Shown: positions 1 to 6,505 of the stretch, in pieces | How positions within the stretch are numbered: the first letter of the stretch is position 1 | Layout: every line of letters begins with the position of its first letter | Program-made: the position numbers and the translations under genes | The notes under the pieces: model-generated | Databases searched by the model: none | What the model saw: only the letters and a program-made list of their open reading frames with translations | What the model was told of the DNA's origin: nothing | DNA from: Phyllobacterium sp. YR531 | GTDB lineage: Bacteria > Pseudomonadota > Alphaproteobacteria > Rhizobiales > Rhizobiaceae | Direction of reading: 5' to 3' | Length of the DNA: 64,000 nt | Assembly: GCF_000282595.1 (NCBI RefSeq) | Contig: NZ_AKIZ01000015.1 | Span: forward strand, 1-64,000

Positions 1-503
1 CAGTGATGCTGACTGACTGGCGCCAGCGTAATCAGACATTTTTTTCGGCGCTTCAGGTCGAACGCAATGTGATGTTCATGATCCTGACATTGATTGTTCT
101 GGTGGCAGCGCTGAACATCATCTCCGGGCTGATCATGCTGGTGAAGGACAAGGGGCGGGATATCGCCATCCTTCGTACAATGGGTGCCACACGAAATTCA
201 ATCCTGCGCATATTCCTGATGACCGGAGCGGCTATCGGTGTGACCGGCACCATTGCGGGTGTGGTGCTTGGTGTGGTCGTCTGCCTGAATGTGGAGCGCA
301 TCCGGGAGTTTTTCTCCTGGTTGTCGGGAACAACACTTTTCAATCCCGAGCTTTATTTCCTGAGCACCCTTCCGGCCAAAATGGACTTCAATGAGACCTT
401 TACCGTCATTCTCATGGCGCTTGTCCTGTCGTTTTTGGCAACGCTTTTCCCCGCTTGGCGCGCAGCCAAACTCGACCCTGTTGAAGCTCTGAGGTATGAA
501 TAA
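1..503 (+). CDS. lolC: Lipoprotein-releasing ABC transporter permease LolC/LolE, C-terminal part (5' end outside window)
   Basis: Inner-membrane permease of the Lol system, which extracts outer-membrane lipoproteins from the inner membrane and passes them to LolA. Only about the last 167 residues are present; the frame is open at the left edge. The visible part is the FtsX-type permease domain: a membrane segment ending ISGLIMLV, a cytoplasmic coupling stretch ([20 protein letters not shown]) that is typical of LolC/E, two more membrane segments, and the family ending [13 protein letters not shown]. Its stop overlaps the lolD start by 8 bases, so the two are translationally coupled. Alphaproteobacteria usually have one LolC/E-like permease, so the C versus E label is conventional. 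Confidence 0.93.
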
Positions 504-1185
504 TATGGCTGGGCCTATTCTGCAGCTAACCAATGTCGGCCGCCGCTATGACGAGATCGGCCGCGAGCTTATCATCCTCGACAATGCCAGCTTTTCATTG
601 GGCAGGGGCGAGATGGTCGCGCTTGTCGCGCCTTCCGGCGCGGGAAAATCGACTTTGCTGCACACGGCAGGTTTGCTGGAGCGCCCAGACAGTGGTGACG
701 TGATTCTTGACGGACGCTCTTGTGGGGCGTTGTCGGAAGAGGAACGCACTGCGATACGCCGCAACGATGTTGGCTTTGTCTACCAGTTTCATCACCTGCT
801 TCCGGAATTCTCTGCGCTGGAAAATGTCATGATGCCGCAAATGATCCGGGGCATGAAACCGGCAGTCGCATCGGAACGCGCACAGCAATTACTCGATTAC
901 ATGAAGGTGGGGGCGAGGGCATCTCACCGCCCAAGCGAACTATCGGGCGGCGAACAGCAACGGGTGGCCATAGCTCGCGCTGTGGCAAATGCACCGCTTG
1001 TACTACTCGCTGACGAGCCTACAGGCAATCTTGATCCGGTTACCTCATCTTATGTGTTTGAAGCGCTTGAAGCGCTTGTGCGTCAATCCGGCCTTTCGGC
1101 AATGATCGCCACGCATAATCACGAGCTGGCCCGCCGTATGGATCGACGCGTCACTTTGAAGGACGGCAAGATCACCGATCTCTGA
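496..1185 (+). CDS. lolD: Lipoprotein-releasing system ATP-binding protein LolD
   Basis: ATPase of the Lol lipoprotein-release complex, a partner of the permease encoded just upstream. The 229-residue length is normal. Walker A is APSGAGKST (45-53), where the first glycine of the usual motif is alanine; as I recall this is common in alphaproteobacterial LolD and not a defect. The signature LSGGEQQR lies at 149-156 and Walker B with catalytic Glu (LLADEPT) at about 170-176. The start ATG lies inside the lolC stop region (ATGAATAA), which fits coupled translation. A second ATG three codons on is possible. Confidence 0.95.
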
Positions 1186-1210: not shown

Positions 1211-1264
1211 CCCGTTAGGAATTTGAAAACCATAGCGTCAGCCACGCATGGAGTACGCTTGACA

Positions 1265-1294
1265 TTGGAACAAAAATGGAACAAAACATATACA
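1265..1294 (+). promoter_or_regulatory. Candidate sigma-70 promoter of the 28-aa peptide gene
   Basis: A -35-like TTGGAA (1265-1270), an 18-base spacer and a -10-like TATACA (1289-1294) sit right upstream of the small peptide gene. A TTGACA at 1259-1264 is a better -35 hexamer but gives a 24-base spacer. The LexA box lies across the spacer, as expected for repression by blocking polymerase. A start near 1301 would leave a leader of about 20 nt with the Shine-Dalgarno sequence. Confidence 0.5.
1268..1282 (+). promoter_or_regulatory. LexA (SOS) box, GAAC-N7-GAAC
   Basis: GAAC at 1268-1271, seven bases, GAAC at 1279-1282: an exact match to the direct-repeat LexA operator of alphaproteobacteria (GAAC/GTTC-N7-GAAC/GTTC). 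It overlaps the candidate promoter and lies 40 bases before the ATG of the 28-codon gene. A second exact match precedes dinB in this window, which makes a chance match less likely. Confidence 0.8.
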
Positions 1295-1321
1295 TAGAGC
1301 AAACGAAGAAGGGTTTTACCG

Positions 1322-1408
1322 ATGAGCGAACTTTTCCAGGATGTCATGTCATTTGTTACAATCAGCCTTTTCATTGCGACTTTTGCAATGTGGGTAAGCG
1401 TAATCTGA
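1322..1408 (+). CDS. 28-aa single-pass membrane peptide, SOS-controlled (SidA-like candidate)
   Basis: A 28-codon frame starting MSELFQDVMS and ending FAMWVSVI. Residues 10 to 28 are almost wholly hydrophobic, enough for one membrane span, with an acidic N-terminus (Glu3, Asp7). A Shine-Dalgarno sequence AAGAAGGG (1306-1313) lies 8 bases before the ATG, and a promoter overlapped by a LexA box lies just upstream. Known comparison: Caulobacter SidA is a 29-residue SOS-induced inner-membrane inhibitor of cell division acting on FtsW/FtsN. Size, topology and regulation match, but I cannot align the sequences, so a role in SOS division arrest is inference. Its position between lolD and dnaE may be conserved. 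It could also be a noncoding stretch with a fortuitous frame. Confidence 0.62.
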   Translation: MSELFQDVMSFVTISLFIATFAMWVSVI

Positions 1409-1561: not shown

Positions 1562-4500
1562 TTGGCAGATGGGCACGGCAACGCAGGCAATGCAGACAAG
1601 CTTCCATTGCGCTTTGTCCATCTGAGAGTCCACTCCGCATACTCATTGCTTGAAGGCGCATTGCAGGTACCAAAGGTAATTGACCTTGCCGTATCAAACA
1701 AAGCGCCGGCTATCGCGATCACCGATACAAACAATCTTTTTGGTGCACTTGAATTTGCACAAAAAGGATCAAAAGCTGGTTTGCAGCCTATTATCGGTTG
1801 CCAGTTGGATATCGCATTCCATGACCAGAGTGAAGAAAGCCGGAACGTAAACCGGCGCGAGGCGCTTGGTCTTGCACCAATGGTTTTTCTTGCCGCGACC
1901 GAGCTGGGCTATGCCAACCTCGTTCGGCTTGTGAGTCGCGCCTATCTCGAAACACCGGCGGGCGATCCTGTGCATGTCACTTCTGCGTGGTTGGCCGGAA
2001 AGACCGAGGGTATAATTGTTCTCTCTGGTGGTCCGGAGGGCGCTATTGCCAAGGCGATAAAGGATGACCGGATAGACCGTGCCCGCCAGCGGCTTCTTGC
2101 ATTGAAATCGCTTTTTGGTGACAGGCTTTATGTCGAACTCCAGCGTCATCGCGGATATGACAAATCATTGGAGGCTGCACAGGTCGATCTGGCCTACGAA
2201 CTCGAGCTGCCGCTTGTCGCCACCAATGATGTGTTTTTTTCCAAGAGCACTGATTATGAGGCGCATGACGCCTTGCTGGCGATTGCATCGGGGTCATTGC
2301 TTTCCATCGATGATCGGCGGCGTTTGAGCCCGGATCATTATCTCAAGAGCGAAGACGAGATGGTTCAGCTTTTTGCTGACCTGCCGGAGGCAGTGGAGAA
2401 CACCGTCGAAATCGCCATGCGCTGTTCTTATTATCCGAAGAACCGTGCACCGATCCTGCCTCGTTTCACCGGCGAAAGTGCCGATCCTGAAGCAGCACTG
2501 GCTGCCGAAGCGCAAGAACTGGCACGTCAGGCACGCGAAGGTCTGGAAGAGCGTATCGCGACTGTGGGGCTTGCTGGCGCTCATACACGCGAAGAATATG
2601 CCGAGCGCCTGGAATATGAGATCGCCGTTATCACCCGTATGAAATATCCGGGTTATTTTCTTATCGTTGCGGATTTTATCAAATGGGCGAAGGCTCATGA
2701 TATTCCGGTAGGGCCGGGGCGTGGTTCAGGTGCAGGCTCACTTGTCGCCTATGCGCTTACGATCACGGACGTCGACCCCCTGCGGTTTTCGCTGCTGTTC
2801 GAGCGCTTTCTTAATCCCGACCGCGTGTCCATGCCGGATTTTGATATCGATTTCTGTCAGGAACGCCGCGATGAGGTTATTCGCTATGTTCAGGCCAAAT
2901 ACGGCCGCGATCAGGTAGCGCAGATTATCACTTTCGGAACATTGCAGGCGCGCGCTGTGTTGCGTGACGTTGGGCGCGTTCTTGAAATGCCTTATGGGCA
3001 GGTTGATCGTCTGACCAAGATGGTTCCCGCCAATCCGGCCAATCCCGTAACACTTTCGAAGGCTATCGAAGACGAGCCGCGTCTGCGCGAAGAGCGCGAC
3101 AAGGAGCCGGTTGTCGAACGCCTGCTTGATATAGCCCTGAAACTTGAAGGGTTGTACCGGCACGCTTCAACACATGCTGCTGGTATCGTTATCGGCGACA
3201 GGCCGCTGTCTGAACTGGTTCCGATGTATCGCGATCCGCGTTCCGACATGCCTGTCACGCAGTTCAACATGAAAATGGTGGAAGAGGCGGGGCTGGTCAA
3301 ATTCGACTTTCTCGGCCTCAAAACGCTGACCGTGCTGCAAACCGCGGTCAATCTGGTCCGCCGTCGAGATATTAATGTTGATCTGTCGAATTTGCCTTTC
3401 GACGATCAGACCACCTATGAAATGTTATCGCGAGGCGAGACAGTCGGCGTGTTTCAGGTGGAAAGTACCGGCATGCGCAAAGCGCTGATCGGTATGAAAC
3501 CTGATCGGATTGAGGATATTATTGCGCTCGTTGCGCTTTATCGCCCGGGTCCGATGGAGAACATCCCGACCTATAATGCGCGCAAGAACGGTGATGAGGA
3601 GATGGCCTCAATCCATCCCAAGATTGATCATCTCGTCAAGGAAACGCAGGGCGTCATCATCTATCAGGAACAGGTGATGCAGATCGCGCAGGAAATGTCG
3701 GGCTATACGCTCGGTGAAGCCGATCTTCTGCGGCGTGCCATGGGTAAGAAAATCCGCTCTGAAATGGATTTACAGCGGGTCAGGTTTGTCGATGGGGCAG
3801 TCGAGCGTGGTGTAACCAAGCCGCAGGCAAATTTCATTTTCGACCTTCTGGCGAAGTTTGCCGATTATGGTTTCAACAAGTCTCACGCTGCTGCTTACGC
3901 GATCGTGTCGTTCCAGACCGCTTATATGAAGGCGCATTTCCCGGTCGAATTTCTAGCTGCATCAATGACTTACGATATGTCGAATACCGATAAGCTCAAT
4001 GATTTCCGCCGTGAGGCGGTGCGGCTTGGCATCGAAGTCGTCACTCCTTCAGTCAATACGTCCTACCGGCTATTCGAGGTTGGCGAGAACCGAATCTATT
4101 ATTCGCTCGCTGCTATCAAAGGCGTGGGTGAGGCGGCGGTTGATCATATTGTCGAAAAACGCGGGGCAACACCTTATGCCAGCCTTGAGGATTTCTGTGA
4201 GCGGATCGACCCTCGCGTCGTTAACCGGCGTGTGTTCGAAAGCCTTATAAATGTTGGCGCTTTCGACTGTTTTGGACGTGAACGGCCCGCACTCATTGCA
4301 GGTCTCGATCGCATCATAGGCCATGCACAACGCACGCAGGAAGACAGTGTCAGCGGTCAAGCTGACATTTTCGGCGGTATGGCAGCAACTGCACAAACAA
4401 TTCAACTTCCATCCGCAAGCCCTTGGCTTTCCTCGGAAAAGCTGAGGCGAGAATTTGAAGCAGCGGGCTTCTATTTATCTGCACATCCCCTTGATGAGTA

Positions 4501-5053
4501 TCAGCCGATCCTTGATAAGATGCGCGTTCAAACTTGGTCGGAGTTTTCTGCAGCGGTAAAACGTGGTGCCAATGCCGGCCGTCTTGCAGGAACAATAACC
4601 GCCAAACAGGAACGCCGGACCAAGACCGGGAACAAGATGGGGATCATCCAGTTCTCTGATTCTTCAGGACAATTCGAAGCGATACTGTTTTCGGAAGCTT
4701 TGGCGCAGTTCCGGGATTTGCTGGAGCCGGGAAGGTCTGTGGTTATCACGGTAGGGGCGGAAGACAGGCCCGAAGGGATCAGCCTGCGCATACAGACTGC
4801 ACAGTCTCTTGAGGATGAGGCGACCCGCATGCAGAAGGCATTGCGGCTCTATATGCGCTCCAGCGAGCCCCTGGCGGCCATTACGCCCTATCTGACGCCG
4901 CAAAATGATGGACAGGTTGTCAGCCTGATCCTGATCAAGCAAAACGGGGCCAATGAAGTGGAAATAGAGCTGCCAAATCGCTATCGGGTCGGCCCCCAGA
5001 TTGCCAGTGCGATGAAGGCTATTCCCGGCATTGTCGAAGTCGAAATGGGCTGA
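1562..5053 (+). CDS. dnaE: DNA polymerase III subunit alpha (replicative)
   Basis: Catalytic subunit of the replicative polymerase. An N-terminal PHP domain begins at about residue 17 (FVHLRVHSAYSLLEG). The polymerase core carries GPGRGSGAGS and the catalytic-aspartate motif PDFDIDF at 425-431, and the C-terminal region has the OB-fold (near 1000) and tau-binding parts. At 1163 aa it has the length of DnaE1. The error-prone DnaE2 is shorter (about 1050-1100 aa) and normally follows imuA-imuB, which are absent here. The start is TTG, chosen because GGAG (1550-1553) lies 8 bases upstream and the frame has no better start before the PHP domain. The LexA box at 1268 lies about 280 bases upstream and probably serves the small peptide gene, though read-through into dnaE cannot be excluded. 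Confidence 0.96.
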   Translation: MADGHGNAGNADKLPLRFVHLRVHSAYSLLEGALQVPKVIDLAVSNKAPAIAITDTNNLFGALEFAQKGSKAGLQPIIGCQLDIAFHDQSEESRNVNRREALGLAPMVFLAATELGYANLVRLVSRAYLETPAGDPVHVTSAWLAGKTEGIIVLSGGPEGAIAKAIKDDRIDRARQRLLALKSLFGDRLYVELQRHRGYDKSLEAAQVDLAYELELPLVATNDVFFSKSTDYEAHDALLAIASGSLLSIDDRRRLSPDHYLKSEDEMVQLFADLPEAVENTVEIAMRCSYYPKNRAPILPRFTGESADPEAALAAEAQELARQAREGLEERIATVGLAGAHTREEYAERLEYEIAVITRMKYPGYFLIVADFIKWAKAHDIPVGPGRGSGAGSLVAYALTITDVDPLRFSLLFERFLNPDRVSMPDFDIDFCQERRDEVIRYVQAKYGRDQVAQIITFGTLQARAVLRDVGRVLEMPYGQVDRLTKMVPANPANPVTLSKAIEDEPRLREERDKEPVVERLLDIALKLEGLYRHASTHAAGIVIGDRPLSELVPMYRDPRSDMPVTQFNMKMVEEAGLVKFDFLGLKTLTVLQTAVNLVRRRDINVDLSNLPFDDQTTYEMLSRGETVGVFQVESTGMRKALIGMKPDRIEDIIALVALYRPGPMENIPTYNARKNGDEEMASIHPKIDHLVKETQGVIIYQEQVMQIAQEMSGYTLGEADLLRRAMGKKIRSEMDLQRVRFVDGAVERGVTKPQANFIFDLLAKFADYGFNKSHAAAYAIVSFQTAYMKAHFPVEFLAASMTYDMSNTDKLNDFRREAVRLGIEVVTPSVNTSYRLFEVGENRIYYSLAAIKGVGEAAVDHIVEKRGATPYASLEDFCERIDPRVVNRRVFESLINVGAFDCFGRERPALIAGLDRIIGHAQRTQEDSVSGQADIFGGMAATAQTIQLPSASPWLSSEKLRREFEAAGFYLSAHPLDEYQPILDKMRVQTWSEFSAAVKRGANAGRLAGTITAKQERRTKTGNKMGIIQFSDSSGQFEAILFSEALAQFRDLLEPGRSVVITVGAEDRPEGISLRIQTAQSLEDEATRMQKALRLYMRSSEPLAAITPYLTPQNDGQVVSLILIKQNGANEVEIELPNRYRVGPQIASAMKAIPGIVEVEMG

Positions 5054-5165: not shown

Positions 5166-6482
5166 CTAATCGATCTCGTCCGGCGCTTCTTTTGCTCGCG
5201 ATTTGATCTTGCCGAATGTGTAACCGGTTTCGACGGCATGATTGCCAAACTTCCCGCGCAACTTGTCGATTGCTGTTTCCGCAACTGCACGTTTAGTAGC
5301 CTGCACATCGACGAGATCGAGAGGGTCAGCTCTGCCATCATCGCCAAGATCGCTCACACCGATTCCGATCAAACGAAACCGTGTTCCGTCGATTTCTTTT
5401 TCGAGCAGTGAAACACCTGTCCGGAAAATTCTGTCAGCGAGTTGTGTCGGATCGGCAAGCTGGCGATTTCGGGTCTTCAATTTGAAATCACGTGACTTCA
5501 ATTTCAAAACAACAGTACGTCCGGCAATGTCTGCCGCTTTGAGTCGTCTGGATACTTTTTCGGAGAGTGCTCGCAGGATGGGCACCAGTTCTTCCAACGA
5601 GGCGATATCCTCGTTGAACGTTGTTTCTGCCGAAACACTTTTGCTTTCACCTTCAGGATCAACCCGTCTGGTATCCATGCCGCGCGACAAGCGGTACAGT
5701 CGCTGACCCATGGTGCCATAAGAGCGCATCAGCGGACCCAGCTCCATCGTTTGCAACTGCCCAATGGTGTGGATGCCATCCCGATCCAGTGTTGCTGCAA
5801 ACGCCTTGCCGACACCCCAGATCATTGTGACCGGCTTATCGTGTAAAAAGGTGAGGGCTTCCTCTTCTCCGATAATGGAGAAGCCGCGCGGTTTTTCAAA
5901 ATCGGAAGCAATCTTGGCGAGGAACTTGCAATAGGAAAGACCAACGGAAACGGACAGTCCCAGTTCGCGTTCAACACGATTGGAGAACTGCGCCATAACC
6001 CGCGCTGGCGGGTCATGGTGCAGGCGTTCCGTACCGGACAGATCCAGAAAAGCCTCATCAATTGAAAGCGGCTCAACCAAAGGCGTCAGATCGCGCATCA
6101 TCTGGCGGATTTCCCGCCCGACCCGAACATATTTTTCCATATCCGGTTTAATGACAACAGCATGAGGACAGGCCTCCAACGCTTTGAACATTGGCATGGC
6201 AGACTTCACACCATGGATGCGGGCGATGTAGCAAGCTGTTGAAACGACACCACGTTTACCGCCACCAATGATTACAGGCTTGTTACGTAGTTCAGGATTG
6301 TCGCGCTTTTCCACCGATGCGTAAAACGCATCACAATCCACGTGGGCGATGCCAAGACGATAAAGTTCTTCATGCCGGAGCAATCGCGGGCTGCCGCATA
6401 CCTGGCAGCGCTTTCCCTCATTCGCCTGCGCTGCAAGGCAGTCACGGCAGAAACCAAATTGCGGATTGTTAAGACTGGCCAT
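5166..6482 (-). CDS. dinB: DNA polymerase IV (Y-family translesion polymerase)
   Basis: Y-family polymerase for damage bypass. The catalytic core has [18 protein letters not shown] (near residue 50) and [11 protein letters not shown], with the little-finger domain in the C-terminal third. At 438 aa it is longer than E. coli DinB (351 aa) because of an N-terminal extension with a CxxC pair set (FCRDC and CQVCGSPR, near 12-33) that looks like a small zinc ribbon; I recall this in alphaproteobacterial homologues. The extension supports the ATG start at 6482. A LexA box lies 8 bases upstream of that ATG, so dinB is very likely SOS-induced, perhaps from a leaderless or very short-leader transcript. 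No good Shine-Dalgarno sequence is visible. Confidence 0.95.
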
Positions 6483-6490
6483 GATGCCCG

Positions 6491-6505
6491 GAACATAAAA
6501 TGAAC
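6491..6505 (-). promoter_or_regulatory. LexA (SOS) box of dinB
   Basis: GAAC (6491-6494), seven bases, GAAC (6502-6505) as read on the plus strand, which is GTTC-N7-GTTC in the direction of dinB. It ends 8 bases before the dinB ATG, so a LexA-blocked promoter must overlap it and the transcript leader must be very short. Confidence 0.82.

Follow-up and report, generated by a model that had tools for sequence, protein, structure and literature searches.

The closest described system is SidA of Caulobacter crescentus (CCNA_02004; PMC11034885), a protein of 29 residues that acts on FtsW (PMC4211646). Two-hybrid tests show contacts of SidA with both FtsW and FtsN, and the favored model is that SidA keeps the FtsW/FtsI/FtsN complex inactive; suppressor substitutions reported for SidA/DidA include FtsW A31K, F145L, and A246T (PMC4211646). 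DidA, also from Caulobacter, is a small transmembrane, damage-induced division inhibitor as well, but it is SOS independent and binds FtsN (PMC4211646). YneA, SosA, and SulA are likewise SOS-induced division inhibitors, but in the parts of the literature available to us they were described in other lineages, and we found no SOS division inhibitor for rhizobia and their relatives in the open-licence literature.

A further point of comparison comes from Sinorhizobium meliloti, for which a Ribo-seq survey reported sORF25 as a novel translated small open reading frame (sORF) in the 5′-UTR of dnaE1 (PMC10117765). Its authors considered a uORF role for sORFs in 5′-UTRs, sORF25 among them, and the part of the report available to us draws no link between sORF25 and the SOS response or SidA (PMC10117765). 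Here, we describe a short gene located between lolD and dnaE in Phyllobacterium sp. YR531, within a stretch of 64,000 nucleotides at the start of contig NZ_AKIZ01000015.1 (referred to below as the window).

A 28-codon frame lies behind a LexA-type box between lolD and dnaE

A first-pass annotation of the window had proposed that an SOS-controlled membrane peptide of 28 residues is encoded between lolD and dnaE and might be a SidA-like division inhibitor. Direct reading bore out the 28-codon frame with its one hydrophobic span, the exact GAAC-N7-GAAC box, and the Shine-Dalgarno sequence ahead of the ATG, and both neighbors were identified with NCBIfam models (Table 1). The match of lolD to its best model had an E value of 6.9e-77, yet stayed under the cut-off of that model. 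The annotation had also described promoter-like hexamers. The −35-like element is indeed conserved, but a sigma-70 consensus scan found no promoter at the box and no clear −10 element, its single hit falling within the peptide frame.

Table 1. Features of the peptide locus and its neighbors in the window
Feature	Position	Strand	Remarks
−35-like hexamer TTGACA	1259-1264	+	Direct read; CTTGAC unchanged in 19 genus loci
LexA-type box GAAC-N7-GAAC, GAACAAAAATGGAAC	1268-1282	+	Exact, direct read
Shine-Dalgarno-like GAAGAAGGG	1305-1313	+	8 bases 5′ of ATG; GAAGGG unchanged in 19 genus loci
Predicted SidA-type peptide gene, 28 aa	1322-1408	+	ATG at 1322, stop codon at 1406-1408
lolD, upstream neighbor	496-1185	+	Best NCBIfam match LolD TIGR02211
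dnaE, downstream neighbor	1562-5053	+	TTG start (mechanical listing); PRK05673 over its cut-off
dinB, beyond dnaE	5166-6482	−	

The predicted peptide, MSELFQDVMSFVTISLFIATFAMWVSVI, consists of a short acidic head and a single hydrophobic span (KD mean of 2.15 over residues 8 to 28) and carries a net charge of −2. The window peptide had no Pfam match, and a joint Pfam search with the 45 rows of alignment A3 returned two hits at an E value of ≤1 (0.05 and 0.3); none of the 45 rows had an NCBIfam match. A search of solved structures gave one match, at an E value of 0.42, and hence no informative structure. We also considered a 47-residue frame at 1276-1419 that starts inside the box and rejected it; its reading frame differs from that of the conserved peptide.

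Exact LexA-type boxes are frequent in the genome

Taken alone, the exact box is weak evidence. The window contains four exact boxes, compared with 2.0 expected, and four or more occurred in 16 of 100 shuffles; genome-wide, the plain pattern (66 + 75, or 141) is rarer than a reversed control (102 + 91, or 193). The combination of box and frame, on the other hand, stands above chance because it is conserved in the genomes of the genus, as described below.

We read 12 other box-bearing stretches of the same genome. The same type of box precedes ssb by 278 bases and also precedes a gyrB/parE-type gene (L386); parE is listed as SOS regulated in S. meliloti (PMC3323433). An exact box at 6491-6505 in the window lies 8 bases before dinB, which is on the minus strand, in the orientation opposite to that of dinB. 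Near dnaE2 on contig 15, a box precedes a frame that resembles imuA by eye, for which the NCBIfam models gave no support. None of the remaining stretches among the 12 was identified as an SOS gene, as expected for so frequent a pattern. Two similar frames of 77 residues stand behind exact LexA-type boxes on contigs 16 and 19 of this genome (L383, 204-434, and L385, 157-387); both carry a GFARGWKP stretch near the end and have no Pfam match, and they are possible paralogous SOS genes.

The frame is conserved as a coding sequence within the genus

A DNA search found this locus in all 20 genomes of the genus that were searched and, weakly, in 1 of 39 others; genomes of this genus measure 4.5 to 6.4 Mb. 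In records labeled as plasmids, the closest DNA was that of Shinella and Sinorhizobium, at 72 to 74%. The 28-residue peptide follows an exact box in every one of the 20 genus genomes searched (19 plus L028, which was read separately). Among the 19 loci, 4, 1, and 19 sites vary at codon positions 1, 2, and 3, respectively, and pN/pS is 0.036 over 171 pairs. This codon-position pattern and the low pN/pS mark the frame as a gene that encodes protein and is kept by strong purifying selection. The DNA match stops no more than 2 bases from the stop codon in 6 of the 20 genomes. Missing conservation and changes scattered at random had been named as findings that would speak against the gene, and the genus genomes held the reverse of both.

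Several elements flanking the gene are also conserved. A hairpin (TCTCCG-loop-CGGAGA) at 1533-1554 covers the likely Shine-Dalgarno sequence of dnaE, and its stem is kept perfectly, with varying loops, in 15 of 20 genus loci; such conservation 5′ of dnaE suggests that dnaE may be subject to translational control. In the gap between the peptide stop and dnaE (1409-1561 in the window), 15 of 20 genus loci have a GANTC site, a CcrM-type motif, 116 to 132 bases past the peptide stop. Upstream of the promoter, the block AAAACCATAGC at 1226-1236 is conserved in the genus and has the counterpart TTAACCATAGC in S. meliloti. This block is possibly a half site of the CtrA type (motif TTAACCAT); with up to one mismatch the motif occurred upstream of 21 of 78 loci, against 4.9 in letter shuffles, a signal too weak for use. 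In at least two genus genomes, a histidine phosphatase gene on the opposite strand follows the peptide (L023, 1711-2289, and L026, 1776-2354), and in L026 the dnaE leader hairpin is found about 1 kb further downstream.

Box and peptide are widespread in the family and usually, but not always, lie by lolD or dnaE

A six-row profile detected the peptide in 122 of 394 family genomes, representing 44 of 109 genera. With a broader profile that included the Sinorhizobium and Shinella types, matches at an E value of 0.01 came from 173 of 209 genomes in the family, which cover 93 of the 109 genera; 7 of the 20 listed family genomes lacking a match are small (1.1 to 2.0 Mb). The best 22 loci from other genera of the family all encode 28 residues behind an exact box. 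We fetched 40 more distant family loci and counted 37, after dropping three (L093, L097, and L099) in which the matched frame had no start codon; two boxless loci were kept as failures, namely, L063 (32 residues, a second copy) and L094 (28 residues). The length is exactly 28 residues in 36 of the 37. Within 100 nt, an exact box is present in 30 and a box with no more than one mismatch in 34; in one further locus (L085) the box region is cut by a contig end. The arrangement noted in the window, a short hydrophobic frame behind a LexA box, is widely kept in relatives across the family.

Within about 2 kb of these 37 loci we found lolD only in 17, dnaE only in 3, both genes in 4, and neither in 13. 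Since 13 loci have neither neighbor, a position by lolD or dnaE is usual but not fixed. Second copies of the peptide gene, both boxless, were seen at L063 (2001-2096, plus strand, 32 residues) and L363 (1977-2087, minus strand, 37 residues), each in a genome that also has a boxed copy, and several genomes gave two to four peptide matches. On plasmids, neither the window peptide nor the Caulobacter-type peptide was matched by tblastn, a search that is insensitive for so short a query.

These neighborhoods bear on the idea that the frame is a leader ORF controlling dnaE through its own translation, and that it is dnaE which the LexA box serves. Such a role would agree with the short distance to dnaE (153 bases from the peptide stop in the window, 7 to 71 in the Caulobacter family), with the SOS regulation of dnaE in C. 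crescentus (PMC3323433), and with the place of sORF25 in the dnaE1 5′-UTR (PMC10117765). It is harder to reconcile with the 30 of 37 family loci in which we saw no dnaE over about 2 kb downstream, with the four loci examined that are followed by unrelated genes in the opposite orientation (a lipoyl ligase family gene in L090, the histidine phosphatase gene in L023 and L026, and a gamma-glutamyltranspeptidase gene in L064), and with amino acid selection across the whole frame. Because box and peptide persist where dnaE is not nearby, the frame is not merely a dnaE leader, and we regard this explanation as improbable relative to a SidA-type peptide gene. In the window, dnaE may well be cotranscribed with the peptide.

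The S. meliloti peptide probably corresponds to sORF25

In the S. meliloti record CP090106, the lolD-dnaE gap encodes MADFVRDLAAFASMSLFIVSISVIALGL behind two overlapping LexA-type boxes. No gene is listed there in this record, the listing of which is known to be incomplete. The translated sORF25 is likewise assigned to the dnaE1 5′-UTR (PMC10117765), and the S. meliloti peptide is probably sORF25. The sequence CP090106.1 (L389) is labeled S. meliloti plasmid pSymB and is 3.7 Mb long; it carries dnaE, a proline-tRNA ligase gene, and genes of the lolC-lolD type and so is apparently the mislabeled chromosome.

The arrangement extends into the order and is a minority in the class

When the family-level profile was run over the order, 27 of 297 genomes matched, 15 of them from other families. 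Of these 15 loci, 14 combine an exact box with a plausible start (29 to 38 residues) and dnaE downstream. We also read the regions upstream of dnaE without any profile, which yielded 30 order loci, including our own, from 40 genomes with a match; a forward box was present in 17 of the 30 and a short hydrophobic frame behind the box in 14.

For the class, we read 89 dnaE loci out of 133 other genomes with a DnaE match, leaving out 44, and applied permissive criteria (four start codons allowed, hydropathy of >1.2). By these criteria, a forward box with a hydrophobic frame behind it occurs in 17 of the 89. Outside the order, the arrangement of box, peptide, and dnaE is a minority in the class, given that 72 of the 89 dnaE loci are without a forward box. 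A class-wide search with profile A3 matched 3 of 385 genomes, including our own, and the other two matches were spurious. Profile A4 matched 30 of 289 genomes at an E value of 0.1, again including our own. Among its 29 other loci, we examined the 10 with a short frame and skipped the rest, which sit in longer frames; L162, L180, and L181 are members with box, lolD, and dnaE, L183 is a probable member, and the remaining six were judged spurious.

The Caulobacter-family peptide corresponds with high probability to SidA

Using DnaE of G433 (Rhizomicrobium-like) as a query on the genome contigs, we obtained 46 loci and read 35, the other 11 being non-alphaproteobacterial or distant matches. Box and hydrophobic frame were present in 24 of the 35. 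In L312 (labeled Phenylobacterium sp.) and in L306, L310, and L317 (labeled Caulobacteraceae), a 30-residue peptide, MVIHLARESLAFV(S/T)VAGFVWVVCQFAYLVG, follows boxes and directly precedes dnaE. A profile of these 30-residue peptides together with the G492 peptide gave matches in 135 of the 149 genomes that make up the family of G492 here (E value of 0.05). The holdfast HfaA family, which among 14 controls was specific to Caulobacter vibrioides, matched 5 of 16 box-bearing genomes, and the HfaA match in G492 was weak and below the cut-off.

In a genus with genomes of 3.3 to 5.6 Mb that appears to be Caulobacter-like, all 13 first copies fetched encode 29 residues, one with a GTG start, and dnaE begins 19 to 71 bases past the stop. 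Across the 20 Caulobacter-family loci fetched, a long frame read as dnaE starts 7 to 71 bases past the stop in 19, and the twentieth is a second copy. An exact box lies within 150 nt in 12 of the 20; 8 have none, one of them a second copy. The first-pass annotation had likened the window peptide to SidA in size, topology, and control, and this likeness holds up against Caulobacter-family loci in which a peptide of 29 or 30 residues stands behind LexA-type boxes before dnaE.

At L358, lolD and the peptide are separated by an opposite-strand gene that encodes an inosine-uridine nucleoside hydrolase (PF01156, IU_nuc_hydro; E value of 4.7e-79). An inosine-uridine preferring nucleoside hydrolase is also what CCNA_02005 encodes (PMC3667746), the locus numbered directly after sidA (CCNA_02004), and dnaE is CC1926 (PMC1839093). 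From this neighbor, the published loci, and the length of SidA, the 29-residue frame is with high probability sidA, an identification that rests on place, length, and neighbors, with one neighbor checked at one locus.

The frequent company of lolD raises another reading, in which an SOS membrane peptide of SidA ancestry has a different target, for instance, the Lol transporter or another inner-membrane enzyme. Although 21 of the 37 distant family loci have lolD no more than about 2 kb upstream, none was seen in the other 16, some Caulobacter-family loci have lolD separated from the peptide by other genes, and the published target of SidA is the divisome (PMC4211646). We regard this reading as very improbable, and a target in the divisome is preferred.

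The window peptide aligns without gaps to the Caulobacter-family peptide

The comparison with SidA that the annotation had called for was made with profiles. A7, the profile of the Caulobacter family, was seeded by position from L264, L306, and L312, widened by profile, and built independently of window-side profiles, its frames being chosen as the hydrophobic one behind the box; part of the A4 rows had been found with profile A3. With hhalign, A3, A4, and A8 each aligned to A7 gap-free from Met1, with probabilities of 86.3, 94.9, and 90.3%. As a control for A3 and A4, the columns of A7 were shuffled, either as one set without Met1 or with head and span kept apart. None of 300 shuffles reached the observed score in any of the four control runs (observed scores of 23.7 and 27.6; largest shuffled scores of 21.0 and 16.9).

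Phe is present at position 17 in every row of A3, A4, A7, and A8. Residues common to both peptides are otherwise few, namely, an acidic residue at position 7 and small or polar positions, and hydrophobic peptides easily resemble each other, which counts against the relationship. The two are alike in size (29 and 28 residues), in having one hydrophobic span and LexA-type boxes, and in their place before dnaE, but differ in that some members of the Caulobacter family have lolD set apart from the peptide by another gene. Given the gap-free profile alignment, the shared place, and the box, the best reading is that the window peptide would be an ortholog of SidA; with residue identity this low, a specialist may prefer the term positional homolog. 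The relationship to SidA and the LexA-type control are well supported.

The same features must be weighed against a depolarizing toxin. TisB, an SOS-induced hydrophobic peptide, belongs to the size class of the window peptide, which shares with such toxins an SOS-type box and one hydrophobic span. DinQ, too, is an SOS-regulated single-span peptide in the available part of its description (PMC3567139). A peptide of this kind would act on the membrane itself and promote dormancy. The genomic setting of TisB and DinQ is, however, unlike that of the window locus; no Rfam match at an E value of ≤1 was found on either strand between 1100 and 1700, where an undescribed RNA is possible; the frame is strongly conserved over the family; and its profile is related to that of the Caulobacter-family peptide. 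A toxin of the TisB/DinQ kind is therefore very improbable, and a SidA-type inhibitor remains the preferred reading.

The peptide would hold the septal synthase complex inactive after DNA damage

We consider it likely that the frame encodes an ortholog of SidA, that is, an SOS-induced division inhibitor of the inner membrane acting on FtsW/FtsI/FtsN. What we infer for this organism is that the gene responds to damage and that its product enters the membrane, binds FtsW, and arrests division. In the proposed sequence of events, DNA damage would activate RecA, and LexA would be cleaved and leave its box. A short mRNA would then be made, here probably running on into dnaE, and the 28-residue peptide would insert as a single helix into the inner membrane, its N terminus short and polar. 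There it would bind the septal synthase complex FtsW/FtsI/FtsN and keep it inactive, so that constriction would be delayed until the chromosome is repaired.

FtsW of two Caulobacter-like genomes has A31, F145, and A246, three positions substituted among the suppressors, and the aligned residues of FtsW from the window genome are A, F, and A, an agreement that serves as a consistency check, as conservation at these positions may have reasons unrelated to SidA.

Implications for the SOS response of rhizobia and their relatives

The kind of protein, SidA, is known already. As far as the open-licence literature shows, what is new is its spread over the family and much of the order, the constancy of its length across family members, its lack of dependence on dnaE, and its connection with sORF25. 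The evidence inclines us, with some reserve, to a broader view in which SidA would be a single branch of an ancient lineage of SOS checkpoint peptides in much of the Alphaproteobacteria, usually encoded near lolD and/or dnaE and largely without a family model. In that case sORF25 would be its translated member, and rhizobia and their relatives would rely on this peptide and FtsW to stop division.

If the window peptide is a relative of SidA, the damage checkpoint would be older and more widespread than a single model bacterium suggests. The family can be recognized by box, place, and pattern, which supplies a testable SOS division inhibitor for dozens of genera and a possible function for the Ribo-seq orphan sORF25. 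With well over 100 natural variants of a 28-residue helix, it also offers material for locating the residues that would contact FtsW.
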